Made by a program: the position numbers and the translations under genes | Source of the DNA: Pseudomonadota bacterium | GTDB lineage: Bacteria > Desulfobacterota > Desulfobulbia > Desulfobulbales > CALZHT01 | Reading direction: 5' to 3' | Assembly: GCA_018823135.1 (NCBI GenBank) | Contig: JAHJJF010000092.1 | Span: forward strand, 1-43,657 | Length of the DNA stretch: 43,657 nucleotides | The notes under the pieces: generated by a model | What the model saw: the letters and a program-made list of their open reading frames with translations, nothing else | Databases searched by the model: none | Told to the model about the DNA's origin: nothing | Shown: in pieces, positions 1,483-21,337 of the stretch | Numbering within the stretch: the stretch's first letter is position 1 | How the letters are laid out: every line of letters begins with the position of its first letter

Positions 1483-2811
1483 ATGGGACATCTTGTCGGC
1501 AAGACTTTATATAAAAGACTCTCAGTCAACATTGACAATATGGGTTTTCCCATCGCCGGGAACCAGGCATTTTTTGCTGTTCTCCGTCACCTGTATTCTG
1601 AAACCGAGGCGAGCATTGTTATTCAATTGCCTTACCGGCTGTCCTCATTACAACAGATCGAAAAGCTTACTAAAATCAGTTGCCCAAAGCTCGAACATTA
1701 CCTTGAAAAATTATGCTTTAAAGGCCTGGTGATAGACATCTGGGTTGAAGACCAATATCTTTATATGCCTTCACCTTATGCTGTGGGTATTTTTGAATTC
1801 ACCTTCATGAAAACCGGGCCCGATGCTGATATCCGGACAATTGCCAAACTTTTCCATGAATATCATTTGTCTTTCACGAAAGGCGACAGGTCATCAGAAA
1901 ACCGTAAAAGGACAAAAAAGCCCCTGCCTTCAATAGGGATTATGCGGACAATTCCCTATGAGGAACATATTGCCCGTGATGCCTATGTGGAAGTACTTGA
2001 CTACGAAAAGGCAAGCGCTATCGTCGAGCAATCAGGGGATAAAATGGCGATCAGCCATTGCTCTTGCCGTCACCAGAAGTATCATGCCGGAACCAAGGAA
2101 TGCGACCATCCGCTTCAGACATGCTCCAGCTTCGGCTGGATGGCGGACTTTGTAATCCGCAGAGGTCTCGGCACACCAGTCACTAAAACACAGATGCTGG
2201 AGAATATCGCCCGTTCAAAGGAATTAAAGCTTGTCCTGAACGCGGATAATGTAAAGCAAAATATTACTTTCATCTGCCATTGCTGCAAATGCTGCTGCCA
2301 TACTTTAAAAAACATGCGGCTTTGCGGTTATCCTAATATTGTGGTCACCTCAACGCTTATTTCAAAAGTCGATGAAAAAAAATGCATCGGCTGCGGCCTG
2401 TGTGCTGAAGCCTGCCCGGTTGATGCGATTAAGATGGTTCCCACCGGTGATAAAAAGAAAAAAAAGAAGCCCGTGCTTGATCAAGAAATGTGCCTGGGAT
2501 GCGGTATTTGCGCCCAGACCTGCAAGACGGACGCGGTCCTGCTGGATAAACGAGAGCAGCGGGTGATTCATCCTGAAAACACCTACGAACGGATACTGCT
2601 CCAGTCCTTGCGGAACGGCAAACTGCAGCACCAGCTCTTTCCAAATCCCCAACAGATCACTCATAAAGCAATGCGAGGCATACTTGGTGCTTTCCTGCGG
2701 CTCGACCCCGTTAAACGCGGACTCATGAGCGACATTCTGCGCTCAAGATTTCTAAGCGCCATAAAAACAACCACAACAATTTTTGGTGCTTCCCGCAGTT
2801 GGCCTGAGTAA
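1483..2811 (+). CDS. Cys-rich 4Fe-4S dicluster protein with winged-helix-like N-terminus
   Basis: 442 residues. Residues ~35-110 look like a winged helix (helix, then KLEHYLEKLCFKGLVIDIW and a YYMPSP-like strand). The middle carries the Cys-rich segments HCSCRH (~193) and CHCCKCCCH (~265). The C-terminal third has two ferredoxin motifs of the type CxxCxxCxxxC, reading CIGCGLCAEAC and CLGCGICAQTC, which should bind two [4Fe-4S] clusters. The second motif ends in C-K where a proline is usual. This arrangement matches a cytosolic family I remember from sulfate reducers, annotated only as 4Fe-4S binding proteins; its role is unknown and could be redox sensing or electron transfer. No strong Shine-Dalgarno precedes the ATG at 1483. 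The stop is 2 bases before the next start, so the two genes are probably coupled. Confidence 0.85.
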   Translation: MGHLVGKTLYKRLSVNIDNMGFPIAGNQAFFAVLRHLYSETEASIVIQLPYRLSSLQQIEKLTKISCPKLEHYLEKLCFKGLVIDIWVEDQYLYMPSPYAVGIFEFTFMKTGPDADIRTIAKLFHEYHLSFTKGDRSSENRKRTKKPLPSIGIMRTIPYEEHIARDAYVEVLDYEKASAIVEQSGDKMAISHCSCRHQKYHAGTKECDHPLQTCSSFGWMADFVIRRGLGTPVTKTQMLENIARSKELKLVLNADNVKQNITFICHCCKCCCHTLKNMRLCGYPNIVVTSTLISKVDEKKCIGCGLCAEACPVDAIKMVPTGDKKKKKKPVLDQEMCLGCGICAQTCKTDAVLLDKREQRVIHPENTYERILLQSLRNGKLQHQLFPNPQQITHKAMRGILGAFLRLDPVKRGLMSDILRSRFLSAIKTTTTIFGASRSWPE

Positions 2812-2813
2812 CC

Positions 2814-3416
2814 ATGATCAAACAAAAATTTAGAAAAATACTCATCAAGGCTGTCCGTTCAATTTATTATTGCCAGCGGCATATCATATTAACGCGCGAC
2901 CTGAAAGTTCCTAAAATCTCGCTGGATGATATTCATATTCGCTCTATCAGAGAGGACTCCGAAGCACTCACAGACCTCAGCAACCATGTGCCGCATAAGG
3001 CAAAAATAATTCAACAGCGACTTGAGGCCGGGGTTGACTGCTATGTGGTCTACAATGACACAAACAAAATGATTGCCTACGGTTGGTATGCAACCAGGGA
3101 CTTTTATGAACCGATGCAGGACGTTACTTTCATGTTACAAAAAGGCCAGGTATACCCATTTGACGTTGAACTTTTGGAAGAATACCGGGGGCAGTTCATG
3201 CTCGCCCCCAAACTTGCCTATCTTTTCTGGAACCATTACATCACATTAGGATATAATAACATAATCTGCATGGTTGATCTGAAGAATACCGCCAGCTTGC
3301 AACTTCATGCCTTTATGAACTTCAAGGAATTCGGTGAAATGATTTTGACCCGTTTCATTTTCACCAAACCTTTCACCACCCGAAGACGCTATACAGGTTC
3401 ATATTTTGACCAATAA
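2814..3416 (+). CDS. GNAT-like acyltransferase-related protein
   Basis: 200 residues. The fold pattern resembles GNAT N-acetyltransferases: a basic N-terminal helix, a central strand pair (CYVVYNDTNKMIAYGWYAT), and a late segment DLKNTASLQLHAFMNFKEFG, which matches the usual GNAT ending where a helix after N-x-x-S-x-x-L-H leads to a GF-like turn. The classical acetyl-CoA loop (R/Q-x-x-G-x-G/A) is not clear. It starts 2 bases after the Fe-S gene and precedes a second acyltransferase-like gene, so it probably modifies a sugar or lipid precursor of the polysaccharide locus. Function beyond the fold is inference. Confidence 0.6.
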   Translation: MIKQKFRKILIKAVRSIYYCQRHIILTRDLKVPKISLDDIHIRSIREDSEALTDLSNHVPHKAKIIQQRLEAGVDCYVVYNDTNKMIAYGWYATRDFYEPMQDVTFMLQKGQVYPFDVELLEEYRGQFMLAPKLAYLFWNHYITLGYNNIICMVDLKNTASLQLHAFMNFKEFGEMILTRFIFTKPFTTRRRYTGSYFDQ

Positions 3417-3482
3417 TCACGGAATATTTCCAGCTCGACGCCTCGGGCGCTAGCTCAATATCATCCTGAAATCCTATACTAA

Positions 3483-4610
3483 ATGTCCAAACTCACTGTC
3501 GAAACAATCCGGGATATTGCTGGTCTCGAAAAGCTGAAAACCTGCTGGGATGAATTGCTTGCAACAAGCGAAGCTGACCCTGTTTTCGGAAGTTACGAAT
3601 GGACCCGGATCTGGTGGCAATCCCATTCGGCAGATAATGTCGATCCTTTTCTGCTGGTTTTCACGCTTAACAAAACGGTAAAAGGGATTATCGGTCTTTA
3701 CCATACCCGCGCACAACAGGGGCCGTTCACCGTCCACACCATAAAATCACTCGGGGTGCCTGCAGCTGATTATTATAATTTTATTATTGCGGATGAATTT
3801 AAAGTCGAAATAATCAATCAATTTGTGGAAAACCAGATAACACAAGGTGATTTCGACGCCATTGCTTTGCGACATATCAAATCATCCTCCGGCAATCTGG
3901 CGGAGCTCGTCAGGATTTCCAAAAAGAACGGGTTGATCGCGGTTATTGAACAAACCGAGCCCTGCCCGTATATCCGTCTTGAAAAAACCTTTGAAGATTA
4001 CCGGCAAAAACAGCTGAACTCCCGCAGCCGTAATATGTACAGCCGGAAATATAAAAAACTCCTGGCCTTGGGGGAAATCCGCTTTGAAATGGTTACGGAC
4101 AAGGCCGCAATCATCAAGGTTCTCCCAGAAATGGCGGCGCTTGAAGATAAATCCTGGAAAGGGCCCCGGCAAGTGGGCATATTCGCCTCTCCCGAAAAAA
4201 GAGACTTCTATTTCAAAGTCACCGAAGCCCTTGCAGAAAAAGAACAGGTCGCCCTTCACTTGCTCTGGCATAATGCCAGGCTTTTATGTTATTATTTCTG
4301 TTTTCTGCTTGATGACAGACTTTATTTTTACAATACTGCCTTTGACCCCGAATACAGCCGTTTCTCTCCGGGATCGTTGAGCTTTCTCGATTTGATTAAA
4401 TGCTGCCACGAGCGGCGAATTATAATTATCGACATGCTCCGCGGCGGTCATGATTATAAATCAGGCTGGGCCGCGCAATGCACCGAAAACATCAATCTGC
4501 ACCTTTTTCCCCCTACGATCAAAGGGCGGATACTGGCTCTGCTTTTCGAGCTACGGCTTAATTTGCGGAAGTTGAAACGAAAATTTATAGGCAAGAAACA
4601 TGAAAACTGA
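3483..4610 (+). CDS. CelD/BcsL-like GNAT acyltransferase (Acetyltransf_6 / FemAB-like)
   Basis: 375 residues with the pattern of the CelD/FemAB-like double-GNAT family: an N-terminal half with DPVFGSYEWTRIWWQ (~32-46), a linker, and a C-terminal GNAT half containing ALHLLWHNARLLCYYFCFLLDDRLYFYNTAFDPEYSRFSPG (~257 onward; given here as the strand pair and the F-D-P-E-Y-S-R-F-S-P-G turn). Proteins of this family are common in exopolysaccharide loci and are thought to transfer acyl or aminoacyl groups to sugars. It overlaps the following sulfotransferase by 11 bases in another frame, which suggests translational coupling. The substrate cannot be read from the sequence. Confidence 0.75.
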   Translation: MSKLTVETIRDIAGLEKLKTCWDELLATSEADPVFGSYEWTRIWWQSHSADNVDPFLLVFTLNKTVKGIIGLYHTRAQQGPFTVHTIKSLGVPAADYYNFIIADEFKVEIINQFVENQITQGDFDAIALRHIKSSSGNLAELVRISKKNGLIAVIEQTEPCPYIRLEKTFEDYRQKQLNSRSRNMYSRKYKKLLALGEIRFEMVTDKAAIIKVLPEMAALEDKSWKGPRQVGIFASPEKRDFYFKVTEALAEKEQVALHLLWHNARLLCYYFCFLLDDRLYFYNTAFDPEYSRFSPGSLSFLDLIKCCHERRIIIIDMLRGGHDYKSGWAAQCTENINLHLFPPTIKGRILALLFELRLNLRKLKRKFIGKKHEN

Positions 4611-5298
4611 AGATGCACCAATTTACATTGTTTCAGGACTGCCCCGTTCCGGAACATCGATGATGATGAAGATACTGGAAGCGGGCGGACTGCAGACCAT
4701 GGTGGACAATATCCGCACCCCGGACGAAAATAACCCCAGAGGCTATTATGAACTGGAGGCGGTGAAAACCATAAAAAAAGACCATTCCTGGCTCGCAGAG
4801 GCCAGAGGCAAGGCGATAAAAATCATCTCAAAACTACTCCAGGCACTGCCTACCGGATATTCCTATAAAATTATCTTCATGAAACGGCGGCTCGAAGAAA
4901 TAATTTCATCCCAGGAAACCATGCTCCAAAGAGAAGGAAAATCAGCGGCTGTTGACGGCAAAAAACTTGCGGCCCTGTACCATAACCATCTGGAGGAAAT
5001 TGAAGAATGGCTTTCCCGGCAAAAAAATATCGAAGTATTGTATGTCACTTACCACGAAGTCATTGCCGACCCCAAAACCAACCTGCAATTGTTGAATAAC
5101 TTTTTGGATAATTGTCTGATTATCGAGAAGATGGTTCGTGTAGTTGATAACAGCCTCTATCGGCAACGAACTGATCCTGGCCGGGTTTCAGATCATCAGG
5201 AAAACACAAAAATTTCCGGGAATACCGTAGAAGAAAACGCCACTGCCGAATCCAACAAAAAAATAGAAGATCAGCTCAAGGCTCTGGGATATATGTAA
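4600..5298 (+). CDS. Short sulfotransferase-family protein with LKALGYM tail
   Basis: 232 residues. The N-terminus reads IYIVSGLPRSGTSMMMKIL; LPRSGTS is the 5'-phosphosulfate loop of PAPS-dependent sulfotransferases. Residues ~87-100 (YKIIFMKRRLEEIISSQ) fit the 3'-phosphate-binding element with its Arg and Ser. The protein is shorter than usual cytosolic sulfotransferases (about 270-300). It continues into an acidic, Lys/Asn-rich linker (~195-222) and ends in LKALGYM, a tail also seen on the unrelated hydrolase at 8910-10511. It starts inside the end of the preceding acyltransferase gene. The predicted role is sulfation of a sugar or lipid precursor in the cytoplasm; the acceptor is unknown. 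Confidence 0.8.
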   Translation: MKTEDAPIYIVSGLPRSGTSMMMKILEAGGLQTMVDNIRTPDENNPRGYYELEAVKTIKKDHSWLAEARGKAIKIISKLLQALPTGYSYKIIFMKRRLEEIISSQETMLQREGKSAAVDGKKLAALYHNHLEEIEEWLSRQKNIEVLYVTYHEVIADPKTNLQLLNNFLDNCLIIEKMVRVVDNSLYRQRTDPGRVSDHQENTKISGNTVEENATAESNKKIEDQLKALGYM

Positions 5299-5384
5299 AA
5301 CCAACCTTCTCAATCCGTAACCGTAATGCAAGACGACAGTTTCCTGATTCTGGAGAAATCTTGACACATACAAAGGTGTTACCC

Positions 5385-6287
5385 ATGCCGCTCCCTAATT
5401 TTTTTATTATTGGCGCGCCAAGATCCGGCACGACCTATATGCATAATTGTTTAAAGCAGCATCCTCAAATATTTTTCCCGATAATAAAAGAACCCAGTTT
5501 TTTTTCTTATGACAAAAACAACCCGAAAATTGTTGAATTATACTCAAAGCTAGATGCTGCTTATGGGCACAAACTTATCAGATCAATGGATGAATATGCC
5601 AATCTGTTCATTGATGTAAAAGACAAATCCTCGATCGGCGAATCATCAACAAATTACTTATATTTCCCAAATACTGCTCAAAATATATACAAACATGTAC
5701 CAACGGCAAAAATCATTGTTTCGCTAAGAAATCCTGTTGATGCTTTATATTCAATATGCACATGGGCATATATGTATAAATTCATTTATACACCTTTTTT
5801 TAATCTCTCAATAAAAGAACAACTCAATACAATTAACGAATTCGATAGATTCTATTTCAATCCTTATTTTTATTATAAATATTTATCTGAATATCTTTCT
5901 GTATTTGACAGAAGCAGAATAAAAATTGTTATTTTTGAAGAATGGATTAAAGAGCCTGAAAAATGCATTCCGGAAATTTTCAATTTTCTAGAATTAGATA
6001 CAAAGTCTAAAGTAGAATATAATGTTGAAGAATTTAAGAGTGATATTATCAGGTCTCTTTTTATTAAAAAAATTATCAGAAGATTTTTTTTAGAAATATC
6101 AAATATCATTAATCCGTTTTCTGCCAAATTTGCATATTCATTAAAAAACAGAATAAAAGCCACGTTCCACACAAAACCTCCTCCAATCTCACCGGAGTCG
6201 AGAAATGAATTATTAAAACTTTATCATGATGATATCATGAAACTCCAAGACCTCCTCGACCGGGACCTTTCTTTATGGCTCAAGTAA
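5385..6287 (+). CDS. PAPS-type sulfotransferase, AT-rich gene
   Basis: 300 residues from the ATG at 5385. The first residues, MPLPNFFIIGAPRSGTTYMH, contain the phosphosulfate loop APRSGTT; LRNPVDALYS (~117-126) is the 3'-phosphate-binding element; the end (LLDRDLSLWL) is the usual sulfotransferase ending. A TTG at 5361 in the same frame, with GGAG five bases before it, is an alternative start adding eight residues. Codon use is very different from neighbours: lines around 5880 and 6060 are only about 15-25% GC, against more than 55% in adjacent genes, which indicates recent acquisition. It probably sulfates the same polymer or a lipid-linked precursor as its neighbours. Confidence 0.85.
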   Translation: MPLPNFFIIGAPRSGTTYMHNCLKQHPQIFFPIIKEPSFFSYDKNNPKIVELYSKLDAAYGHKLIRSMDEYANLFIDVKDKSSIGESSTNYLYFPNTAQNIYKHVPTAKIIVSLRNPVDALYSICTWAYMYKFIYTPFFNLSIKEQLNTINEFDRFYFNPYFYYKYLSEYLSVFDRSRIKIVIFEEWIKEPEKCIPEIFNFLELDTKSKVEYNVEEFKSDIIRSLFIKKIIRRFFLEISNIINPFSAKFAYSLKNRIKATFHTKPPPISPESRNELLKLYHDDIMKLQDLLDRDLSLWLK

Positions 6288-6311
6288 TTCTTGAATGACA
6301 CTCAGAAAATT

Positions 6312-7496
6312 ATGAATATTTTTATTTTATCATCTGCAATCGAAATGTACTCTTTTCAGCTCGCCAACGGCCTTGCGGAAAAAGACAACGTGATGATTGG
6401 CATGCGAAAATCCGAGGGTCTGAAACTTTTTTCTCAGTTTCAACCTTTTATTTCCGCTTCCAAGGTGACGAGTTACCTGACCCCTCATTATGCTTTTCCT
6501 GATCCCCGTTGTTTCTGGGAAGGACTGAAATTGTACAGGGAAATAATACATCATGACTCGCATGTGCTGCATTTCCATTCTGGCAATCTTTTTGCGGAAT
6601 ATCTTATCGCCCTCTTCCTGGCCCACAGAAAAAAAATCCCTATTATTACCACCTTTCATGACACATCTAACCATTCCGGGGAACAGCGGAAACTGCGGCA
6701 TAAATACATCAGCTCAAACCTCATAATGCATGTAACGGATCATGCAATTGTGCATGGTAAAGTTCTTGCTGATGACGGTGTAAATTTCGGCTTTGACAGG
6801 AGCTTGATTACTGTGGTCCCCCACGGCAATTATGATATCTATCATCACACGGCCAACCCCGCAGAAGAGTCGCAACCCGTACCGGGCAGGGTCCTGCTTT
6901 TCGGAAGAATGATTCGGTATAAAGGCCTTGAGATTTTAATCAAGGCGGCTCCCGTCATCGCCTCAAGGGTTCCCAATTTAAAAATTGTTCTGGCCGGGAC
7001 TGGCCCTGAGCTCAATCGCCTGCTGCCGGAGGTGGAAAATAATCCCTTATTTGAGGTGCACAACAGGTTTATCGATTCGGGAGAAGTAAAAACTTTTTTC
7101 AGCCGTGCAAGTGTAATTGTCCTGCCGTACCATGATGCCACCCAATCCGGTCCGCTCCACCTCGCATACACATTCGGGCGACCGGTGGTCGCAAGCAAGG
7201 TCGGCGCCATCCCCGAAGCCCTGACCGATGGGATTGAAGGCATTCTCGTCCCGCCTGATAACCCTGAAGCCCTGGCCCAGGGACTCACCAGAATCCTCCT
7301 TGATCCTCAAACGGCTATGGATATGGGGCTGAATGGAAGGGAAAAGGCATCCACCCGCTTAAACTGGGCCGGCCCAATTGCCGAGCAGACAAGAAAGGCT
7401 TACGCCAAGGCTGTCGATCACCATGAAAACCGAAAAAAATACCTTCGCCCAAGCTTATTAAAAATGTTACTAAAGAAGTACACCTCTAATAATTAA
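6312..7496 (+). CDS. Family 4 glycosyltransferase
   Basis: 394 residues from the ATG at 6312; a TTG at 6291 would add seven. It has the two Rossmann domains of GT-B enzymes. The C-terminal half shows LLFGRMIRYKGLEILIKA (~197), where K-G-L contacts the nucleotide diphosphate, VVLAGTGPE-like KIVLAGTGPELNRL, and RPVVASKVGAIPEAL ahead of GILVPPDNPEALA. The first Glu of the usual E-x7-E motif is replaced (TQSGPLHLAYTFG), as in the subgroup of GT4 proteins with an SG turn there. It should transfer a sugar from a nucleotide-sugar to the lipid-linked repeat unit on the cytoplasmic face. It is the only ordinary glycosyltransferase seen in this locus. Confidence 0.88.
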   Translation: MNIFILSSAIEMYSFQLANGLAEKDNVMIGMRKSEGLKLFSQFQPFISASKVTSYLTPHYAFPDPRCFWEGLKLYREIIHHDSHVLHFHSGNLFAEYLIALFLAHRKKIPIITTFHDTSNHSGEQRKLRHKYISSNLIMHVTDHAIVHGKVLADDGVNFGFDRSLITVVPHGNYDIYHHTANPAEESQPVPGRVLLFGRMIRYKGLEILIKAAPVIASRVPNLKIVLAGTGPELNRLLPEVENNPLFEVHNRFIDSGEVKTFFSRASVIVLPYHDATQSGPLHLAYTFGRPVVASKVGAIPEALTDGIEGILVPPDNPEALAQGLTRILLDPQTAMDMGLNGREKASTRLNWAGPIAEQTRKAYAKAVDHHENRKKYLRPSLLKMLLKKYTSNN

Positions 7497-7574
7497 AACA
7501 GTTAGGCACGGATCATCTTTCAATATCATCTAAGTTAAGGACCGCAAGGTTTATCCATTCACAACCGTTTAATT

Positions 7575-8903
7575 ATGCTGAAAAAATTATTCCAAAAGAA
7601 AAATAAAAAGGTTGCGGTGCTTGGCCTTGACGGCGTGCCATACACCTTGCTGGTTACGATGATGAATAATGGTCACATGCCGCATCTTGAGAAAATCATC
7701 AATCAAGGGACCCTCACCAGCATGACCGCCTCCATCCCCGAAGTGTCCTCCACTTCCTGGAGTTGTTTCATGACCGCCGTGAATCCGGGAAAACATGGCA
7801 TTTACGGCTTTATGGAAATTGACCCCGACTCATACTCCTTCAAGTTTCCTAATACGAATGATCTGGCGAGCAAGACCCTTTGGGAGATTGCCGGGGGGAA
7901 TGGCCTGAAAAGTATTGTTATAAATATTCCATCCACCTACCCTGCAAAACCTCTAAACGGTGAACTCGTTGCCGGCTTTGTGGCGCTTGACTTAAAGAAG
8001 GCATGCTATCCCGAATCAATGTTTACGCATTTATCTGGCATGGGATACCGTCTCGATGTTGATGCTGGCAAAGCCGCGTCATCAATGGATGCATTTATCG
8101 AGGATTTAACACTCACATTTAAGAAACGAAAAGAAGCCATCCTTCATTATCTCAGAAAAAAAGACTGGGACCTGTTTGTAGGTGCCATAACCGAGACAGA
8201 CAGACTGCATCATTACCTTTGGGAAGCTTGGGAAAACTGTGATCATCCGCGTCATGCTTTCTTTATAGATTTTTATACAGAACTGGATACATTCATCGGG
8301 GATTTCCATAACCTACTTGATAAGCAGACCCCTTTTATCATGCTATCCGACCATGGCTTTACAACAATCAGACAAGAGGTGTATCTGAACCGTTTTCTTC
8401 AGGAAAAAGGCTATCTGAGCTTCACTTCTGATTCGCCCAGGTCTTTTCAAGATATGGCGCCACAAAGCACCGCATTTGTACTTGATCCTTCCCGGGTTTA
8501 TATCCACACGAAAAAACGCTATAGCCGGGGATGTGTTGAAACCAGTGATTATAAACAACTATGCGATTGCCTAAAAAAAGATCTGCTGGAATTTCAGATT
8601 GACGGGAAACAGGTAATCAAGGAAATCTTCGATGCACGCGATCTGTACATCGGCAGGGAAACCCATCGCGCCCCTGATCTGGTGCTTCTGCCCCATGAAG
8701 GATTTGACCTCAAAGGCAAGATAACCGAGAGAAATTTATACGGCAGAGGACTGCTCACCGGCGGCCATACCCGCGAAAACGCCATGCTCTATATCAATCG
8801 GCAAATACCATCAGGCAATCCTAATATTACCGATGTCGGAGCAACCATCCTTGATCTCCTGGGAATCCTCACAGCGGATCTTGATGGAAAAAGTCTGGTA
8901 TAA
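7575..8903 (+). CDS. Alkaline-phosphatase-superfamily phosphodiesterase-like enzyme, copy 1
   Basis: 442 residues of the type I phosphodiesterase / nucleotide pyrophosphatase group. The metal site is visible: LGLDG (Asp19), the nucleophile region PEVSSTSW (Ser58 at the place where relatives have Thr), TDRLHHYLWE (Asp and two His), MLSDHGF (Asp-His) and GGHTREN (His). It lacks the C/S-x-P-x-R motif of sulfatases, so it is not a sulfatase. No signal peptide is seen; the N-terminus is basic (KKLFQKKNKK). Such proteins are common in exopolysaccharide loci of Desulfobacterota, but their substrate is unknown. The next gene, 6 bases on, encodes a paralogue. The start ATG has only a weak ribosome-binding site. 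Confidence 0.82.
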   Translation: MLKKLFQKKNKKVAVLGLDGVPYTLLVTMMNNGHMPHLEKIINQGTLTSMTASIPEVSSTSWSCFMTAVNPGKHGIYGFMEIDPDSYSFKFPNTNDLASKTLWEIAGGNGLKSIVINIPSTYPAKPLNGELVAGFVALDLKKACYPESMFTHLSGMGYRLDVDAGKAASSMDAFIEDLTLTFKKRKEAILHYLRKKDWDLFVGAITETDRLHHYLWEAWENCDHPRHAFFIDFYTELDTFIGDFHNLLDKQTPFIMLSDHGFTTIRQEVYLNRFLQEKGYLSFTSDSPRSFQDMAPQSTAFVLDPSRVYIHTKKRYSRGCVETSDYKQLCDCLKKDLLEFQIDGKQVIKEIFDARDLYIGRETHRAPDLVLLPHEGFDLKGKITERNLYGRGLLTGGHTRENAMLYINRQIPSGNPNITDVGATILDLLGILTADLDGKSLV

Positions 8904-8909
8904 AAGATT

Positions 8910-10511: not shown

Positions 10512-10517
10512 TCCTCG

Positions 10518-12107: not shown

Positions 12108-12110
12108 TAA

Positions 12111-12935
12111 ATGGTGCCTTTTCTGGATAATCATCAACTTGTTTTCATAGGAGGTCTTCATAGAAGCGGCACTTCCCTTTTGCATGAAATTCTCCGCGAT
12201 CATCCTGAAATCAGCGGCTTTTCAGATACCGGGGTCACTCAAGACGAGGGGATGTTCTTGCAAAACGTTTACCCGACAGCCAAACCTTTTGGCGGACCGG
12301 GACGATTCGGATTTGACAATAAATCGTTCATGGACGAAGATCACCCACTTGCAACCGAAGAAAACGCCAAAAAGATTTTTATGGAGTGGGGCAAACACTG
12401 GAAGCTGAATAAAAAATATCTCATGGAAAAATCGCCCCCCGATCTTGTACGAACAAGATTTCTCCAAAAGCTCTTCCCTCATTCGTTATTTATCATAGTC
12501 CTGCGGCATCCGGTTGCCGTTGCATATGCCACAAAAAAATGGGCCGGATCCGGCATCCCATCTCTGATAGAACACTCCCTCCGATGTTATGAGAGATTCA
12601 TGACCGACAAAGCTTATCTCAACAAATTTTTCATACTCAGATATGAAGACTTTGTCCGGGAACCGGAAAAGATCCTGAACTCCATTACAGGCTGGATTGG
12701 CATTAACCGAATTCAAACCAATAAACCAATCCGCTCTGATATTAACAAAAAATATTTCCTGAAATGGGAAGAGGACCAGACGAATTTTGTAAAGCAGATT
12801 CTTTTAGGATATAAGGACCTTCCGGAAAAATATCAAAAAAGATTCAACAATCTAGGGTATTGCATAAAGGATATTGAGCAACTGATGCCTGTTGCCTGGC
12901 TGGGGCCGAATTCGGACAACAAAAAAAATATCTAA
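12111..12935 (+). CDS. PAPS-type sulfotransferase, third copy
   Basis: 274 residues. FIGGLHRSGTSLLHEIL near the N-terminus carries the phosphosulfate loop (HRSGTS), and LFIIVLRHPVAVAYATKKW (~125) is the 3'-phosphate-binding element. FILRYEDFVREPEKIL (~174) is the conserved region that follows in this family, and YQKRFNNLGYC matches the usual end. GGAG at 12101-12104 supports the start. It is the last gene of the plus-strand arm and faces the ligase/polymerase gene across 51 bases. It shares little sequence with the two other sulfotransferases beyond the PAPS motifs, so the three probably have different acceptors. Confidence 0.85.
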   Translation: MVPFLDNHQLVFIGGLHRSGTSLLHEILRDHPEISGFSDTGVTQDEGMFLQNVYPTAKPFGGPGRFGFDNKSFMDEDHPLATEENAKKIFMEWGKHWKLNKKYLMEKSPPDLVRTRFLQKLFPHSLFIIVLRHPVAVAYATKKWAGSGIPSLIEHSLRCYERFMTDKAYLNKFFILRYEDFVREPEKILNSITGWIGINRIQTNKPIRSDINKKYFLKWEEDQTNFVKQILLGYKDLPEKYQKRFNNLGYCIKDIEQLMPVAWLGPNSDNKKNI

Positions 12936-12986
12936 TGGCAGATAATTCTCTTTAGAGTCGGGCTTACGTCAATTCTACTGTAATTG

Positions 12987-14504
12987 CTACTGTGGGATCT
13001 TTCCGGTCTCTTCGGCAGAGTCCTTCTTCCTTTCGCGCCTATCTATAAAAATCAGAGCGAATGCAATCCCCATAAAACTCCAAAAAGGCGTATTGAGCAT
13101 TACATAAACATAGGCAACAAGATGATGAATACTGAACGCTACTATCCCTCCAATCAAAGCAAAAGCGGTGTAACCCAACAAGTCATCTTTCGATTGAAAG
13201 GCCGTTTGCAGCAACTTGAACAGCACTACTACGATGATGAAGCAAAAAGACAACATGGCAGGCAAACCCATTTCCGCACCAATCAATAAAAAGTCATTGT
13301 GTACCGGCCAGGGGAAAACGATGCTGATCCATTGGAAAATATCATAGTGCTGGTTAACACTGGTATAGTTTCCCAATCCAACACCCAGAAAAGGATTATG
13401 GAGAATCATATTAAGCGCGTTTATCATCAGAGGAATTCTTATGATTGCGGAACCGTAATCATCTTCAAAAAGCCGTTGCCGAACCGATTCGCTGAGAGCA
13501 AGAATCAAAACAATAAATGCAACAATCACAATTGAAACAAAGAATAGCGAAAGGACCTTCCTGCCGGACAATCTGCAAATACACCCATAAAAGGTCAATG
13601 TTCCCCCGACGGCTAATCCCATCCATGCTCCTCGAGAAAATGTCAGAATTTCCAGGGTAAAAGCCAGGAGGATTACCGGCAGGAAAAAACAAATTTTCGT
13701 GCGAAGTTGAATTTTCGTAAAAAATAAAGCGAAATTGATTGGAATTATGAAGGAAAGATAAGATGCCAGAGCATTTTTTGACATCGACCCTCCCACCCGA
13801 AGCAACTCCTTAGAACCAGCCGTCACAGTTTCAACTGATGTTTCTGTTTCACCGAGAAATCCCAACCCAAGGCTACTTCCTGAGATTATTTGCGCCAAAC
13901 AAATAAATGCTTGAAAAAAAACAGACACAAGAAATAAGTAAAAAATAAATTTCAGAATATCCTTGGTCCGAATACTGTTTGCAACAATCAGAAAAGTCAA
14001 AAAACATTTAAAGACCGTCACCAGGGACCAGAACTTAATCACAGTAGGAGATTCGATCCGTGGACTCCCAAGCACCGCACTCATAAAAATCAGCAGAAAA
14101 GGAATTGAAACAGGCAGGATCAAATCAATATCCTTCCTCTCTATTGAACAAAGTCGCTTCAGTAAAAGCATAAACAGAAAAAACAATGGAATATCATATC
14201 CATAAATCACTACACCAACTATGGGCTTGAAAAAGTCCCGCGCCGGAATGAGTATCGGATGATAGTTGAGACCGATGGGCAAAAGAAAGAAGAAACCAAA
14301 GGTTAAAATGGTTTCTTTAAAGGGGCTTACGATAAACAACATGGCGCCGAAAATTATGCACAGAAAAAACAGCGACCATTTGATTTCGATGGAACCGATG
14401 GTTGCAACGACAATGCCGACTACTAAACCTATGACAACTACAAGTAACTTATCAATTACCTGTAATGGAGGCTTGCTGGCGGAATGCGCATCTAATATAA
14501 CCAT
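12987..14504 (-). CDS. O-antigen ligase / Wzy-type polymerase family membrane protein
   Basis: 505 residues with roughly 12 membrane segments and a larger periplasmic region before FLGVGLGNY (~385). Motifs typical of the Wzy_C / O-antigen ligase family are ILTFSRGAWMGL (~290) and HNPFLGVGLGNYTS. These proteins join undecaprenyl-linked oligosaccharides in the periplasm, as polymerase or as ligase onto an acceptor; sequence alone does not separate the two. In this locus, with flippase, Wzz-like and export proteins, polymerase is more likely. Its start overlaps the end of the kinase-like gene by 13 bases. The C-terminus is charged (RRERKKDSAEETG) and cytoplasmic. Confidence 0.85.
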   Translation of the reverse strand: MVILDAHSASKPPLQVIDKLLVVVIGLVVGIVVATIGSIEIKWSLFFLCIIFGAMLFIVSPFKETILTFGFFFLLPIGLNYHPILIPARDFFKPIVGVVIYGYDIPLFFLFMLLLKRLCSIERKDIDLILPVSIPFLLIFMSAVLGSPRIESPTVIKFWSLVTVFKCFLTFLIVANSIRTKDILKFIFYLFLVSVFFQAFICLAQIISGSSLGLGFLGETETSVETVTAGSKELLRVGGSMSKNALASYLSFIIPINFALFFTKIQLRTKICFFLPVILLAFTLEILTFSRGAWMGLAVGGTLTFYGCICRLSGRKVLSLFFVSIVIVAFIVLILALSESVRQRLFEDDYGSAIIRIPLMINALNMILHNPFLGVGLGNYTSVNQHYDIFQWISIVFPWPVHNDFLLIGAEMGLPAMLSFCFIIVVVLFKLLQTAFQSKDDLLGYTAFALIGGIVAFSIHHLVAYVYVMLNTPFWSFMGIAFALIFIDRRERKKDSAEETGKIPQ

Positions 14505-15169
14505 TGGTAGAGCCAGGATGGAATTGGCCTGTGGATTCGATTCAGAACTGCTGAGTTCAGGGTGCAGTTATGGTCGGTAAATTTGGAAACGGCATTCTGG
14601 AGTACTTTAATGTTGCTTCTGCCGGACTGGATGACAAGAAAGGTTTCATCCGACGCCAGAGCTATCGCAATGGCATTATGTGAACTCATGATCGGCACAG
14701 AATCTATTAAGATAAAGTCAAACCGTTTCCGGAGTCCATCAAATGTTTCCGTCAGTTGCTCAACGGACAACTGGCAATCCGGATTTCTGGTTTCAGTACC
14801 GGTAAACATAACATACAGATTTCTCGGTTCAACCTGATTGATTGCGTCCGAATCAGTGAAATCCTTTGCCAGCAATTGCTGAAAACCCGGTTTTGGCGCC
14901 AGTTCGAAACAATTAAATAGCTGCGGATTCTGGAAATTTGCGTCAATCAACAGCACATTGGAGTTTTTCTCACGAGCAGCCAGAAGCCGTGCAACATTCA
15001 CGGCAAAAGTAGTGCAACCTTCACCTGAATGTGCAGAAGTGAGTTGAAAAACCCGCTTGTTGTTTTCTTTGCGCAATGTGCTGAGATGAACACAGAAATC
15101 CCCGGTCTGCTTTTCTTTGGTAAGATCGAGAATCGCAACTGTTCCTGTATTCATTTTTTCTTCTGCCAT
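14492..15169 (-). CDS. CpsD/Wzc-kinase-like ParA-fold protein with degenerate ATP site
   Basis: 225 residues matching the cytoplasmic kinase part of bacterial tyrosine kinases (CpsD/CapB/Wzc). The Walker A region reads SAHSGEGCTT (~47-56), with Cys where the essential Lys should be. Walker A' reads LLIDANFQNP, with Asn and Gln in place of the usual Asp and Arg. Walker B (FILIDSVPI) is close to normal. The C-terminus (PSWLYQWLY) has two Tyr, fewer than the usual Tyr cluster. It sits next to the Wzz-like membrane protein that would activate it, so it is best read as a catalytically weak or inactive regulator of chain length or export. The start at 15169 follows a weak ribosome-binding site. Confidence 0.82.
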   Translation of the reverse strand: MAEEKMNTGTVAILDLTKEKQTGDFCVHLSTLRKENNKRVFQLTSAHSGEGCTTFAVNVARLLAAREKNSNVLLIDANFQNPQLFNCFELAPKPGFQQLLAKDFTDSDAINQVEPRNLYVMFTGTETRNPDCQLSVEQLTETFDGLRKRFDFILIDSVPIMSSHNAIAIALASDETFLVIQSGRSNIKVLQNAVSKFTDHNCTLNSAVLNRIHRPIPSWLYQWLY

Positions 15170-15201
15170 AATTGTTGTTCTCTAATCGGAAAAAATACTG
15201 A

Positions 15202-16686
15202 TCAAACCTTTTTTTCATCTTTTTTGGGGTAGGCGCTGATTACCTTGAGCTTAACTGATGATTCCACATCCGCCGCGGTTTTGACCCTAAAATCAATAAA
15301 CTCAAGAAAAACCGCCGAGCAAATTGCTGCAAAAAAACCGAAGAATAGACTTAAAACTATAATAAGGAGTCTCTTGGGAGAATCCATTTTTACCGGTATG
15401 TCAGGATAATCAACGATTCTGACATTTGCCAAATCGCGCTTCAGGCGCTCTTCGCTGGTCTTGGTGTCTTCCAGTTTTGAAGCATAAAGCTTGAGTTTCT
15501 CCATCTGGAAATCTTTCATTCTGAGCAGATTCTGGAGTTTGGCATTGTGTTCGGTAAGGGCGAGACCTTCGGTGCGCAACGCATCAAATTTTTCCTGCAG
15601 ATTCTCCTTTTTACGGATCATGGTCTGCAATTCTATTTTGCTGGTCCGAAACGCTTTTTCCATTTCTGTCCTGATATTCGTACGAAGAAGCTCTATTTGT
15701 GATGTTATATTTTTATAATTGGAGCTGTTCTCCGAGTACTTTCTCTTTATTTCATTCTGCGTCATCAAAAGAGGCACCAGAGCTTTATCCAGCTCTAGGA
15801 TAGCCGGTATGGCATGCATTTCTCTTGAAATAGCTATTTCCGCGATTTTGCCTTCTAACGATTTTTCAAAAAAATAGATCTGGTCTTCCTTTTCACTAAT
15901 ATCAACTTCAAGGTGCCCCAGATCCTGCAATAGCTGGGACAAACGCATCACATTCTCTTTATTTTGCAGATCAATATCAATGATCTGATTTTCTCCCAAC
16001 AGGCGGTTAATCTCGGTTTCGGTTTTTTCCAGGTCATGAAAAAATTTATCGGTTAAGGTACTGAAGAGTTCCCCGCCCTGAACGTTTGAATACACAACAT
16101 CATGATGTTTTACGTAAACCTTGATCAGTCGGTCCAAAACGACTTTGGCAGCCTTGGCACTTTCCGCTTCAAGAGTAACAGTGAACATATTGGTCATTAC
16201 CACCTGTTCCGTTTCCAGGGAATCGTAGAGCAGGGTTAAGTAATAGTTGAAAATGGGCACTTCTTCGAGAAGTTTGATATAGACCAGAAACTGTTTTAGT
16301 TTCTTTTTTGTAATACCGACAGCCTTCACCAGCCAACTCAATTGGTCCTTGGGCAGGTTCAAAGCTATCGCCTGATTCTCATCTAAAAATGACTGAATGG
16401 TTTTCCTCAAAACATCATTGCTTTTGAGCATCTCCATTTCCGTGTTAATTTCCTGGGGGTTTACCGGTGTGAATGAATTTGGATCCCTACTTGTGGTAAT
16501 AACGGAATTGGCGTTGCTTTTGGGGAGTACCAGAATTGTCGCGGATGTTAAATATGTCGGAGTCCAGAAATATGCATAGAGTCCGACCAGACCGACGATA
16601 ATCAAATATACCGCCAGCATGTGATATTTCCAGGAAAACAATATCCTGGCGAAATCCTTAACCGTATGGAGATTTGTAAGTAACAT
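15202..16686 (-). CDS. Wzz/GumC-type polysaccharide co-polymerase
   Basis: 494 residues with two membrane segments (~23-45 and ~455-475). Between them lies a long coiled-coil-rich periplasmic region (~190-430). The N-terminal Wzz domain (FWTPTYLTSATILVLPKS) and the Pro-rich stretch before the second segment (IPVKMDSPKRLLII) are typical of polysaccharide co-polymerases, which control chain length and bridge to the outer-membrane exporter. There is no kinase domain; the kinase-like protein is encoded separately 32 bases downstream, as in GumC-type or CapA/CapB-type systems. Confidence 0.87.
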   Translation of the reverse strand: MLLTNLHTVKDFARILFSWKYHMLAVYLIIVGLVGLYAYFWTPTYLTSATILVLPKSNANSVITTSRDPNSFTPVNPQEINTEMEMLKSNDVLRKTIQSFLDENQAIALNLPKDQLSWLVKAVGITKKKLKQFLVYIKLLEEVPIFNYYLTLLYDSLETEQVVMTNMFTVTLEAESAKAAKVVLDRLIKVYVKHHDVVYSNVQGGELFSTLTDKFFHDLEKTETEINRLLGENQIIDIDLQNKENVMRLSQLLQDLGHLEVDISEKEDQIYFFEKSLEGKIAEIAISREMHAIPAILELDKALVPLLMTQNEIKRKYSENSSNYKNITSQIELLRTNIRTEMEKAFRTSKIELQTMIRKKENLQEKFDALRTEGLALTEHNAKLQNLLRMKDFQMEKLKLYASKLEDTKTSEERLKRDLANVRIVDYPDIPVKMDSPKRLLIIVLSLFFGFFAAICSAVFLEFIDFRVKTAADVESSVKLKVISAYPKKDEKKV

Positions 16687-16720
16687 GATGTCCTAAGAGC
16701 CGTTTCCAGTAAACAATTTC

Positions 16721-17755
16721 TTATCTTAATAAATCAACTTGGTCGCTAAATGTATATCCCACCCCTCTAAAGAAAGGTATAGACTCGGTTATTTGGCTGG
16801 CAATCTGACTGATCTTGGTAATCTTTGTGCGAGGCACAAAAACTATATCGTACTGGGAAAGCACCAGGTCTTTGCCGATATTTCCCGTCTCAATAATCTC
16901 GCCGTAATCAATAACCTTCGCCATTGGCTTTCCTTTGCCGTTCCTGCTGATCACAAGAATCGTACTCAGTTCAGCGGTGGCAAATGAGACTTTTGAACTG
17001 GCCAGGACCTGGCTTAAAGTTGTGGTGCTGTTGATCGGGTAAAAACTCGGTGCTCGTACCTCTCCCAAAACATAGACCTGATTGTTTCTCGCTTCAACCA
17101 GAGACAAGAAGACCTGGAGATTCATACTGTATTTTTCCTGGTAGAGCTGGTTAACTCTATTGCTCATTTCTGCAAGATTCATCCCCACCACTCGAAAGTC
17201 CTTTACAGCCGGGAAAGAGACATAACCGTCGGGTCGCACTCTCACCCTGCGCAACTGCCCCTGATTCTCTGAGATGATGGCATTCCTGAGCTGATTAAGC
17301 GCATAATAAAACCTGTTCAATGTGACTGTAACAACAGGCTCCGAAATCAGGTCGGCATAGCGTTCAGCGATCTTTTTTTCAAGGTCCGTCCTGGTCATGC
17401 CGATTACTTCCAATTTCCCTTTTGGGGGAAGCGCAATGAGGCCATCCGGCATGACTGTCTCTTCCCGGTTCAACTCAGGATACAGATAAAACTCTATTTT
17501 TATGATATCACCGACGCCAATTCTGTATTCATTGGAATTCTGAGCTAATTCAAAATAGAATGTCGCCTCAATTATGTCTTCCGGTCCGATCAGATAGTCA
17601 CTTGTATTCTCCGGAACAGAGTAGTCTTCATAGACGGTATTATTTTCTACATCGATAGACGGACCGACACATGCAGAAATCAATGCGCTTAAGAAAACCA
17701 AGAGCATTAATCGCATCATTTTTCTATTACAGGCTGTCTCAAGTATCTCAATCAT
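16721..17755 (-). CDS. Wza-like outer-membrane polysaccharide export lipoprotein
   Basis: 344 residues from the ATG at 17755, which has AGGAG upstream; an ATG at 17794 would add 13 residues. A lipoprotein signal ends in LISAC (Cys29). Then come a poly_export domain (YRIGVGDIIKIEFYLYPEL, MPDGLIALPPKGKL, EPVVTVTLNRF) and SLBB-type domains (VYVLGEVRAPSFYPI; IVFVPRTKI). It should form the outer-membrane ring of a Wza-type translocon. A short upstream copy of the first motif (DYLIGPEDIIEATFYFE) precedes the real one, so the N-terminus looks internally duplicated. It lies between the initiating transferase and the Wzz-like gene. Confidence 0.87.
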   Translation of the reverse strand: MIEILETACNRKMMRLMLLVFLSALISACVGPSIDVENNTVYEDYSVPENTSDYLIGPEDIIEATFYFELAQNSNEYRIGVGDIIKIEFYLYPELNREETVMPDGLIALPPKGKLEVIGMTRTDLEKKIAERYADLISEPVVTVTLNRFYYALNQLRNAIISENQGQLRRVRVRPDGYVSFPAVKDFRVVGMNLAEMSNRVNQLYQEKYSMNLQVFLSLVEARNNQVYVLGEVRAPSFYPINSTTTLSQVLASSKVSFATAELSTILVISRNGKGKPMAKVIDYGEIIETGNIGKDLVLSQYDIVFVPRTKITKISQIASQITESIPFFRGVGYTFSDQVDLLR

Positions 17756-17815
17756 TATCAGCTTATTACTCCTAATCTCTGTTGAATGAAACAAAAAAAT
17801 AGGGCACTGCGGAGC

Positions 17816-17836
17816 AACGTAATAAATAATTACGTT
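17816..17836. promoter_or_regulatory. Perfect 8-bp hairpin between export lipoprotein and initiating transferase genes
   Basis: AACGTAAT and ATTACGTT form a perfect 8-bp stem with the 5-base loop AAATA. It sits in the 100-base gap between the initiating transferase gene (upstream on the minus strand) and the export lipoprotein gene. It has no U-tract after it on the minus strand, so it is more likely an mRNA processing/stability element or an operator than a terminator. Confidence 0.4.
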
Positions 17837-17861
17837 AACTTCAAGTTGACCCTGATTTTTT

Positions 17862-19295
17862 TTAATATGCGCCGGTTCTTTTAATTACCGCAGGCAAAGT
17901 CAATAATAGGATCTTCAAATCATTAAATAAACTCCAATTATCTATATATTCAAGATCAAGCTTCATCCATTCTTCAAAATTAATCTTATTTCTGCCGCTC
18001 ACCTGCCAGGTACAGGTAATCCCAGGGAGTACACTTTGACGGCGGCAATAGCAGTACTGACTAAATAATTTATAATCCCTCAAAGGCAACGGGCGTGGAC
18101 CGACCAGGCTGATATCACCCTTGATGACATTAATTAGTTGAGGTAATTCGTCAATGCTAGACTTACGTAAGAAATTACCGATTCTGGTAACTCGCGGATC
18201 ATTCTTCATTTTAAACGCGGCACCGTCCATTTCATTTTGGGTCTCGAGTTCCGCTTGAAGGTTTTCAGCACCGATAAACATTGTTCTGAATTTGTAACAG
18301 GTAAAAATCCTTTTATTGAGCCCGACCCTTTGCTGCAGAAAAAAGATTGGCCCCTTAGAGGTGGCTTTTATCAGCACAGCAACTGTTATCAATAATGGCG
18401 AAATCAAAAGAAATATTGCCGTTGCTAGAACTATATCCAGCAGACGCTTAATCACATACTGCCAACTTTGCATTGGTGAATCATACAATAGATTGCCTAC
18501 CCTGGAATCGTGCAGAGAAAAATGAGACTGACCTGAAAGAGAATGTTTATGAGAATCAAACAGAGGATATGCATAACGGACAAGAACGCCCTGTTCCTCT
18601 GCATAAAGTATTGCTCTTTGGATAGCATCGAATTTGGAGCGAATCGGCAAGGCTATCACCACTTCGTCAATGACGTTTTCACGAAGTATCAGGGGGAGCT
18701 GGGAAATTGTCCCAAGATAATTCACCTGCTGTGGATGAATTACCAGCCGATCATCGACAAATCCCAACACCTGCATGCCGAGTTCTTTTTGTTTCTTAAT
18801 CTTGTCTGCCCAGTCGTAAGCAATTTTATTTGTCCCCACAACTAAGACTTTTCTCAAATTCCTGCCACGGAGACGCATATAGTTGAGCAGAATCCTTAAT
18901 GCAAAACGGAAGAGTATGGTAAGACAGTTTAATATCAGCCAAAAATAGGCGAGGAAAAGAGGGGATCCATAAGGGGTGTCAAAAATAAAATATCCCGGGG
19001 CGACACAAATCACCAATGAAGACGACATTTTAAGAACGTCAAGGATCTCCCTGAAAAAAGAATCAAGTCTTCTTGAAGCGTAAAAGCCATAAAAATCTCG
19101 CAACCAGTCGCCGAGATAAAGAAATATCCCAAAGTATATAATCGTTTCAATATTGATTGCGATATCAGTAATGGACTCAAGAGGAATGAGTTCATTGGCG
19201 TGTAGTGTATTACTAAGATAAATGGCGATAAAAAAGAGAAAAAAATCTGAGAGTTTAAGCAGAACCATTAATATTTTTCTTCTAAAAAATATCAT
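17862..19295 (-). CDS. Initiating polyprenyl-phosphate sugar phosphotransferase (WbaP/WcaJ-type)
   Basis: 477 residues from the ATG at 19295 (a GTG at 19307 would add four). Four N-terminal membrane segments are followed by a Rossmann-like region (RNLRKVLVVGTNKIAYDW, ~165-185) and a fifth segment (LLDIVLATAIFLLISPLLI). The C-terminal catalytic bacterial sugar transferase domain shows FLQQRVG, TCYKFRTM, KSSIDELPQLINVI and SLVGPRPLP. It transfers a sugar phosphate from a nucleotide-sugar to undecaprenyl phosphate at the inner membrane, the first step of repeat-unit synthesis. It heads the minus-strand export arm. A sigma-54-like promoter is visible about 100 bases upstream. Confidence 0.9.
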   Translation of the reverse strand: MIFFRRKILMVLLKLSDFFLFFIAIYLSNTLHANELIPLESITDIAINIETIIYFGIFLYLGDWLRDFYGFYASRRLDSFFREILDVLKMSSSLVICVAPGYFIFDTPYGSPLFLAYFWLILNCLTILFRFALRILLNYMRLRGRNLRKVLVVGTNKIAYDWADKIKKQKELGMQVLGFVDDRLVIHPQQVNYLGTISQLPLILRENVIDEVVIALPIRSKFDAIQRAILYAEEQGVLVRYAYPLFDSHKHSLSGQSHFSLHDSRVGNLLYDSPMQSWQYVIKRLLDIVLATAIFLLISPLLITVAVLIKATSKGPIFFLQQRVGLNKRIFTCYKFRTMFIGAENLQAELETQNEMDGAAFKMKNDPRVTRIGNFLRKSSIDELPQLINVIKGDISLVGPRPLPLRDYKLFSQYCYCRRQSVLPGITCTWQVSGRNKINFEEWMKLDLEYIDNWSLFNDLKILLLTLPAVIKRTGAY

Positions 19296-19398
19296 TTCAA
19301 TTCTCACTTTTCAGTTAAATGAATCGAGCATGGCCCGAAAAAGATTTCGTTGAAAAAAAACACTCAGCTTTGCACCTGCAAAATAAACAGTTTTTATT

Positions 19399-19415
19399 TG
19401 CAAAAACTATGCCCA
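19399..19415 (-). promoter_or_regulatory. Candidate sigma-54 (-24/-12) promoter for the export arm
   Basis: Read on the minus strand this is TGGGCATAGTTTTTGCA: GG, ten bases, then GC, with the -12 element TTGCA perfect and the -24 element GGGCAT one base from TGGCAC at its first position. It lies about 90-100 bases upstream of the initiating transferase start, leaving a 5' leader of about 90 bases. Sigma-54 control of polysaccharide loci is known in Deltaproteobacteria. This is a pattern match only. Confidence 0.35.
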
Positions 19416-19727
19416 GCCACGGGGCTTACTGCTTACACTCAGGGCAATACAACATCTTCTTTAAAATCAAACAATTAAAGCACAAATAAGAATTATTTCA
19501 AATGAAAACTCACCGAGAACCTAACACTAAAAATAATACATTTCAAGAGTATTTCCGTTAATTCGGAAAACCGGAATATACTGTATATCTATCTGATTTC
19601 AAGAACTAATTTCATAATTCCCCAACATCTTTTTCCAGAAAACCAGAAAGATTATTCCTCAAATTGGCTCCAAATTGCGTTTCTGGCCTATTACTTGATT
19701 AATCCGTGAGAAAAACCAGCTGATATA

Positions 19728-19767
19728 AAATTCATAGCAACAGTCTCTAATGTCTATTGTGGCGGAG
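19728..19767. repeat. Diverged direct copy of the tRNA-Asp 3' end and its terminator flank
   Basis: The segment AAATTCATAGCAACAG matches 21091-21106 (AAATTAATAGCAACAG) at 15 of 16 bases. At exactly the same offset, 19757-19765 and 21120-21128 are both TTGTGGCGG, which includes the CCA end of tRNA-Asp; the 13 bases between are diverged. The copies are in direct orientation 1,363 bases apart, bracketing the SDR pseudogene. This could be an old attachment-site duplication or the trace of a lost tRNA copy. Confidence 0.5.
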
Positions 19768-20908: not shown

Positions 20909-21076
20909 GTTCACAAATATAATTTTCCCGGTATCTGAGCACTCCATATTTGTGATAATTTTAGAGATATTTCATCTCGTTATCATGGTGTTTGAATAAT
21001 GTCAAGGCAATGACGGTGGGCGTCTCTGGCTATCCAACATAACCTCCGGGGGATGAACTTGGGGGCACAAATTTAA

Positions 21077-21122: not shown

Positions 21123-21199
<77 letters not shown>

Positions 21200-21261
21200 G
21201 CAAATCGAAAAAAGGCTCAAACACTTTGAACGGATGAAACGTTTGAACTTTATAGTATTAA

Positions 21262-21337
21262 TGGTGGGCGGAACAGGGCTTGAACCTGTGACCCTCGGCT
21301 TGTAAGGCCGATGCTCTCCCAGCTGAGCTACCCGCCC
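21262..21337 (-). tRNA. tRNA-Val (anticodon TAC)
   Basis: 76 bases with encoded CCA. The acceptor stem GGGCGGG pairs with TCCGCCC (one G-T pair), followed by TAGCTC; the anticodon loop is CTTACAA on a CGGC/GCCG-type stem, and the T loop is TTCAAGC. It is first in a two-tRNA unit with tRNA-Asp. Confidence 0.96.

Follow-up and report, generated by a model that had tools for sequence, protein, structure and literature searches.

Few bacterial groups are known to make sulfated polysaccharides, and how these polymers are synthesized has been mapped only poorly. Eight glycosyltransferases and two sulfotransferases are encoded by xss, the synechan locus of Synechocystis 6803 (PMC8205485). In Vibrio sp. 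KMM 8419, the sulfated capsule cluster relies on ABC-transporter export and carries cysNDC inside the cluster (PMC11641403). Here we describe a polysaccharide locus, from a Desulfobulbales bacterium related to sulfate reducers, that encodes three sulfotransferases (ST1, ST2 and ST3) and two phosphodiesterases of the alkaline phosphatase superfamily (PDE1 and PDE2). It lies on contig JAHJJF010000092.1 (C92; 43,657 nucleotides), one entire contig of the 3.6-Mb, 157-contig assembly GCA_018823135.1; this whole stretch of analyzed DNA is referred to as the window. Like xss, it is a Wzx/Wzy-type cluster for an exopolysaccharide that is sulfated, here very probably so, and it has a flippase, a polymerase, a co-polymerase and sulfotransferases of at least two subtypes (PMC8205485). 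With the Vibrio cluster it shares sulfotransferases and an acyltransferase among polysaccharide genes, and genes for the synthesis of 3′-phosphoadenosine 5′-phosphosulfate (PAPS) are regarded as a sulfation hallmark there (PMC11641403).

The reading that we favour, with reasonable confidence, is that of a Wzx/Wzy locus for a sulfated polysaccharide, in which ST1, PDE1 and PDE2 make up a physically coupled sulfation module. The genetic tie of both phosphodiesterases to sulfate activation and sulfotransfer is the unusual part of the locus, and it was missed by the first-pass annotation of this DNA.

Linkage of the phosphodiesterases to sulfation genes

PAPS-type loops were recognized in the translations of ST1 (GLPRSGTS), ST2 (GAPRSGTT) and ST3 (GGLHRSGTS). 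In an alignment of 10 sequences, the loop of ST1 (P15-R16-S17-G18-T19-S20) and its R-x7-S site for the 3′-phosphate (R96/S104) are invariant. An AlphaFold model of ST1 (pLDDT 78) has the sulfotransferase fold, its top structure match being tyrosylprotein sulfotransferase (Z 12.8), followed by the CurM/Ols sulfotransferase domains and StaL. The genome encodes an ATP sulfurylase-APS kinase fusion (Sat-CysC) on another contig (G000:C43; APS, adenosine 5′-phosphosulfate), so PAPS can be made. Sulfate-activation genes are not located in the window, where a dedicated cluster of cysNDC plus a sulfotransferase gene is thus not seen; they are present in clusters of relatives.

Judging from these genes, the Wzx/Wzy polymer very probably carries sulfate. 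The opposite view, that it is unsulfated and that the sulfotransferase-like proteins have lipids or small molecules as their substrates or serve some other purpose, can draw on the placement of another sulfotransferase of this genome in a polyketide-type cluster and on the occurrence of ST1 relatives in clusters unrelated to exopolysaccharides. We consider it improbable, given three sulfotransferases within one complete Wzx/Wzy locus and the measured sulfated polymers of analogous loci (PMC8205485, PMC11641403).

To collect relatives of ST1, genome contigs were scanned with an ST1 alignment. At least 553 were found, and the best 80 were used for the analysis of loci; these span Chloroflexota, Blastocatellia, Nitrospirota, Planctomycetota, Bathyarchaeota and other groups. 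A Nitrospira sp. (L047) has a cysC-cysQ-ST1-PDE1 operon, sat-cysC adjoins ST1 in three loci (L110, L076 and L054), an ST1-cysC pair is found in L098, and a CysQ-like gene is close to ST1 in L099, L045 and L051. The placement of ST1 beside sulfate-activation genes in several phyla supports PAPS as the donor. A PF01663-type gene is fused to ST1 or lies within 3 kb of it in 19 of the 80 loci, and further off in three.

The fusions, proteins of about 920 residues encoded by several genomes of the window's order from related families, combine a PF01663 domain, TPR repeats and an ST1-type domain. When 11 of them were aligned, three elements proved invariant or nearly so: the PAPS loop, the phosphodiesterase active site (D14, S53, D228/H232, D286/H287 and H310) and, where this domain meets the TPR repeats, an LGY motif. 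The 3′-phosphate site described for ST1 is conserved in the fusions as well. ST1 was detected in 20 and a PDE2-like gene in 17 of 258 genomes of the order, both being present in 14 (about 1.3 expected, p ~5e-16). Nine genomes share the two genes when those with fusions are left out (p ~1e-12), and counting by genus gives nine shared against 1.9 expected (p ~2e-7); these p-values ignore phylogeny. Where ST1 and PDE2 are not fused, their genes share a contig, at a distance of about 5 kb in polysaccharide-type loci and 16-20 kb in polyketide-type clusters. The view of PDE2 as a sporadic gene, which came from a search for relatives with PDE2 alone, was abandoned after the gene neighbourhoods had been examined. 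A functional coupling of ST1 with the phosphodiesterases is, on this evidence, highly likely.

PDE1 forms a separate ortholog family: it shares 58% identity over its full length with PDE1 of Nitrospira, and the other phosphodiesterases in the first locus sets show at most about 30% identity to it. Within the phylum, 56 of the 395 genomes sampled carry the gene, and they represent 42 genera. In 22 of 42 loci inspected, a same-strand gene whose product is tailed (LxxLGY plus no more than three residues) is located within 2.5 kb of PDE1. Such a gene directly adjoins PDE1 in 16 of the 42, compared with 7% of all open reading frames (ORFs) of these loci, a background figure that is already too high, since the sampling was centred on PDE1. 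These neighbours encode CysD/PAPS-reductase-type proteins (PF01507, often followed by CysN), APS kinase and ST1, and in one case a sulfatase-family protein. The arrangement in genome G614 (L267), i.e. PDE2(tail)-Wzx-PDE1-CysD-type(tail), is close to the PDE1-PDE2-Wzx order of the window, and the two Wzx proteins are 32% identical. That this widespread phosphodiesterase family accompanies sulfate-activating enzymes and has an unusual C-terminal tail in common with them points to an undescribed sulfation complex. A role of the phosphodiesterases in hydrolysis of 3′-phosphoadenosine 5′-phosphate was set aside, since cysQ already adjoins PDE1 in Nitrospira; the CysQ-like match in the window's own genome is weak.

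These neighbourhoods bear on the possibility of an ordinary sulfated exopolysaccharide locus. PDE1 and PDE2 would then attach or trim an unrelated phosphodiester decoration (e.g. phosphoglycerol or phosphoethanolamine) on the same glycan and would accompany the sulfotransferases only since both decorate exported polymers. PF01663 enzymes are indeed phosphodiesterases, PDE2-type genes are found in polyketide clusters too, and several PDE1 loci include Wzx, Wzz, initiator or glycosyltransferase genes. Nevertheless, we judge this explanation unlikely, because CysD, CysN or CysC adjoins PDE1 in many loci, the Nitrospira PDE1 operon has no glycan gene beside it, and the ST1 fusions and the common tail require a closer link.

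PDE1 and PDE2 score 150.6 and 131.1 bits, respectively, against PF01663 (cut-off 23). With the sulfatase family PF00884, PDE1 scores 18.1 bits, below the cut-off of 25, and PDE2 gives no match. Seven active-site positions, comprising the ligands of a two-metal site and a Ser/Thr nucleophile (D19, the nucleophile, D209/H213, D259/H260 and H398), are kept in PDE1, PDE2 and ten relatives. The nucleophile of PDE2 aligned with that of the Xanthomonas nucleotide pyrophosphatase/phosphodiesterase (NPP; 2gsn). It is therefore improbable that the two proteins are editing esterases which strip misplaced sulfate and so oppose the sulfotransferases: they belong to PF01663 and not to the sulfatase family, have the NPP-type nucleophile and two-metal site, and pair with sulfate-activating enzymes, not with transferases alone. 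What speaks for such editing is that the alkaline phosphatase superfamily includes sulfatases, that PDE1 retains weak similarity to PF00884, and that a real sulfatase with the same tail occurs in one PDE1 locus. No signal peptide or membrane segment was seen in PDE1 or PDE2 (highest 19-residue hydropathy about 1.4 in a rough test), which probably places their action in the cytosol, the compartment that contains PAPS.

Several further clusters came to light around these families. In L266, positions 783-2081 encode the genuine sulfatase-family protein with the LGY tail, beside Wzx and PDE1. ST1 adjoins a NodU-type carbamoyltransferase gene in L035 and L155, which suggests that sulfate and carbamoyl decoration are combined. 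A recurrent cluster of the order comprises genes for a carrier protein, an LGY-tailed PDE2-type enzyme, an alpha/beta hydrolase, an M50-HlyD-like exporter and a sulfotransferase (L198 with L162 in G239:C20, L034 with L160 in G020:C190, L153, L154, L158, L159 and L199-L201), some copies adjoining large polyketide synthases or B12-radical-SAM and methyltransferase genes; it looks like the source of an undescribed sulfated natural product. Three of the four Sulfotransfer_3 matches of the window's genome fall within the polysaccharide locus, and the fourth (L042, G000:C84) shares a cluster with genes for two glycosyltransferases, carrier proteins and polyketide-synthase-like proteins.

The shared C-terminal tail and a putative sulfation complex

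ST1 and PDE2 end in the same LGYM tail (Table 1). When the genome was searched for [F/L]GY[MIL] directly before a stop codon, seven DNA matches were obtained, among which ST1 and PDE2 were the only LGY protein ends found; the match on contig C65 was rejected as a tail, being out of frame within a TPR gene. The two tails differ in DNA sequence and hence did not arise by recent copying. Among 4,958 ORFs from the examined loci, a pool selected by homology to ST1 and PDE, the LxxLGY end occurs in 53; PDE, CysD/H, CysC and ST1, members of four unrelated families, account for 49 of them. The near-variant ends LGF, LAY, IGY and LGW do not occur in this pool. A tail on PDE1 itself and a tailed neighbour never occur together: the sole self-tailed PDE1 (L284) is without such a neighbour. 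Docking of the tail to PDE1 was hypothesized because this complementary distribution fits it, and we give the tail about an even chance of being a docking tag.

Alternatively, the tail could lack a docking role and represent a structural end of the alkaline phosphatase fold, an ancestral CysD end or an independently arisen stability signal. The solved CysD of P. syringae (1zun) ends in ...KKRQGY and the Sat-CysC of the window's genome in LEEQGYIK; ending in GY may thus be ancient among sulfate-activating enzymes. We find this explanation rather doubtful: ST1 and CysC have unrelated folds yet share the LxxLGY end, mainly in members beside PDE1, the near variants are missing, and the genome search yielded just two proteins with an LGY[MIL] end, both encoded in one operon.

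In the coupled module that we favour, the polymer would be sulfated in the cytosol before export, ST1, ST2 and ST3 using PAPS from the chromosomal Sat-CysC. Through the L-x-x-LGY-M tail at their C-termini, ST1 and PDE2 (in relatives, CysD or CysC) would dock to PDE1, which has no tail. PDE1 itself would act on an adenylyl-type nucleotide from the pathway of activated sulfate, be it APS, PAPS or one of their products, and keep sulfate activation and transfer coupled. We propose only tentatively that PDE1 acts on activated-sulfate nucleotides. A bolder version, which we regard as speculative and not very likely, makes PDE1 and its relatives a core part, not described before, of the bacterial sulfation machinery: a cytosolic enzyme of the alkaline phosphatase superfamily to which ATP sulfurylase, APS kinase or a sulfotransferase would attach by its LGY tail, and which would itself handle activated sulfate or even transfer its sulfuryl group, in a modular complex found across several phyla.

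Several points weigh against the coupled module. As many as 58 of the 80 ST1 loci have no PDE on the DNA examined, the tail is missing from most ST1 proteins, and about half of the inspected PDE1 loci, mostly the more distant ones, are without a tailed or sulfation neighbour. LGY near the domain end is also frequent in alkaline phosphatase superfamily proteins; some of the tail signal may thus reflect ordinary domain endings. The pool of loci, moreover, was chosen by homology to ST1 and PDE. The structure model of the fusion has low confidence at the LGY region, too weak to show tail contacts, and ST3 lacks the usual serine of the 3′-phosphate site in its sequence. Finally, sulfate on the polymer, tail docking, the PDE substrate and enzyme activity were read from genes, not from chemistry; gene content, intact active-site residues, PAPS supply, recurrent operons and fusions, and the common tail were observed directly.

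Gene content and genomic setting of the locus

Searches with Pfam and NCBIfam profiles, in which all matches were far beyond chance, delimited the polysaccharide block to positions 2814-19307 (Table 1). It consists of a plus-strand operon (GNATa, GNATb, ST1, ST2, GT4, PDE1, PDE2, Wzx and ST3) and a minus-strand operon (initiator, Wza, Wzz, BY-kinase and Wzy). The first-pass annotation had listed three sulfotransferases with PAPS loops, two alkaline phosphatase superfamily proteins and a complete export set. All of these were recovered: the sulfotransferases by profile and loop, PDE1 and PDE2 by PF01663, and the initiator, flippase, polymerase, co-polymerase and outer-membrane exporter of a Wzx/Wzy system by a profile match for each, all in one locus. 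That annotation placed the locus at 1483-19295, which agrees with our analysis from 2814 onward; the first gene (1483-2811) encodes a two-cluster 4Fe-4S (ferredoxin-like) protein with no visible tie to the polysaccharide genes.

Table 1. Features identified in the window
Feature	Position	Strand	Basis
GNATa, GNAT-like, 200 aa, first plus-strand operon gene	2814..3416	+	by eye
GNATb, FemAB/BioF2-like acyltransferase	3483..4610	+	PF13480 Acetyltransf_6, E 3.6e-27
ST1, PAPS-type sulfotransferase	4600..5298	+	PF13469 Sulfotransfer_3, E 1.4e-10
ST1 C-terminal LGYM tail, ...IEDQLKALGYM	5263..5298	+	sequence
ST2 sulfotransferase	5361..6287	+	PF13469 8.5e-19, PF00685 1.2e-16
GT4 glycosyltransferase	6291..7496	+	PF13692 2.2e-24
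PDE1, alkaline phosphatase superfamily phosphodiesterase, cytosolic-looking, without tail	7575..8903	+	PF01663 1.1e-43
PDE2, alkaline phosphatase superfamily phosphodiesterase, cytosolic-looking, tailed	8910..10511	+	PF01663 9.4e-38
PDE2 C-terminal LGYM tail, ...SKELLKNLGYM	10476..10511	+	sequence
Wzx-type flippase	10518..12107	+	PF01943 5e-20
ST3 sulfotransferase	12111..12935	+	PF13469 1.8e-24
Wzy polymerase	12987..14504	-	PF04932 9.2e-21
BY-kinase (CpsD/EpsG-like)	14492..15169	-	TIGR01007 4.1e-26
Wzz-type co-polymerase	15202..16686	-	PF02706 5.3e-09, PF13807 5.9e-09
Wza-type outer-membrane export protein	16721..17794	-	PF02563 7.4e-30
Initiator, polyprenyl-phosphate sugar phosphotransferase	17862..19307	-	PF02397 3.9e-66, TIGR03025 7.7e-117
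tRNA-Asp and tRNA-Val, conserved edge of variable block beside lon	21123..21337	-	

A sulfated, perhaps acylated, polymer had also been proposed. Its sulfation is backed by the PAPS-loop enzymes, the sulfotransferase fold, Sat-CysC and the placement of ST1 beside cysC, cysQ or sat-cysC, and acylation rests on one clear acyltransferase: of the two suggested, GNATb is well matched, but GNATa is a likeness by eye with no match to a Pfam or NCBIfam family. A reported shortage of glycosyltransferases holds for the locus but not for the genome. GT4 is the sole non-initiating glycosyltransferase of the locus, where several would be usual, though not strictly necessary; the genome yields 12 PF00534 and 17 PF00535 matches, all but one outside the locus. 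The repeat unit may hence be very small, or else other loci may contribute enzymes.

The block is followed by lon-tRNA-Val-tRNA-Asp at 21123-23842. Two genomes of the same family keep this edge and then continue with unrelated genes, which marks the polysaccharide block as a variable island at this site; the entire block, not the sulfotransferases alone, is missing beside lon, and neither ST1 nor PDE2 gave a match in the two genomes searched. The GC content of ST2 (31%, against 41-48% in adjoining genes) is consistent with recent foreign acquisition. Integration of the island through duplication of the tRNA-Asp 3′ end was considered and dropped, as no second copy was found in the window. Between the block and the tRNA genes lies an AT-rich stretch with few genes (19308-21122), which contains a degraded short-chain dehydrogenase fragment (20598-20942).

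Significance and comparison with known systems

Our results suggest that a generically annotated phosphodiesterase family works in sulfate activation or transfer. They also provide a testable rule for finding sulfation modules, i.e. PDE1 beside an LGY-tailed enzyme or PDE-TPR-sulfotransferase fusions, which is applicable to Nitrospirota, lineages of sulfate reducers and other groups. Should the tail serve for docking, it would explain the gathering of unrelated enzymes into one complex and could be useful for engineering sulfated polymers. A link between PF01663 proteins and sulfotransferases was not found in the open-access literature searched, although absence there is not proof.

Dedicated sulfate activation coupled to one sulfotransferase is a feature of the rhizobial NodPQ/NodH and of CysND-C systems with their own sulfotransferase. 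This arrangement resembles the cysC-cysQ-ST1-PDE1 operon of Nitrospira; we know of no PF01663 partner or common LGY tail in either of these systems.

Compared with xss, for which no phosphodiesterase is mentioned, the present locus has one GT4 and an initiator alongside three sulfotransferases (PMC8205485). It differs from the cluster of Vibrio sp. KMM 8419, whose account mentions no phosphodiesterases, in its Wzx/Wzy export and in having Sat-CysC elsewhere (PMC11641403).

The Xanthomonas NPP (PDB 2gso) has the PF01663 core and the seven active-site positions common to PDE1 and PDE2. The overall match of PDE2 to solved NPPs is weak (33 bits at best), and PDE1 has none. Characterized NPPs are extracytoplasmic, whereas PDE1 and PDE2 are without signal peptide or membrane segment and occur in sulfation operons. 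ST1 has the fold and PAPS-binding motifs of PAPS-dependent sulfotransferases such as tyrosylprotein sulfotransferase, the sulfotransferase domains of polyketide synthases and StaL; unlike these, its family has a short core of about 190 residues, and some members are LGY-tailed or fused to PDE-TPR.

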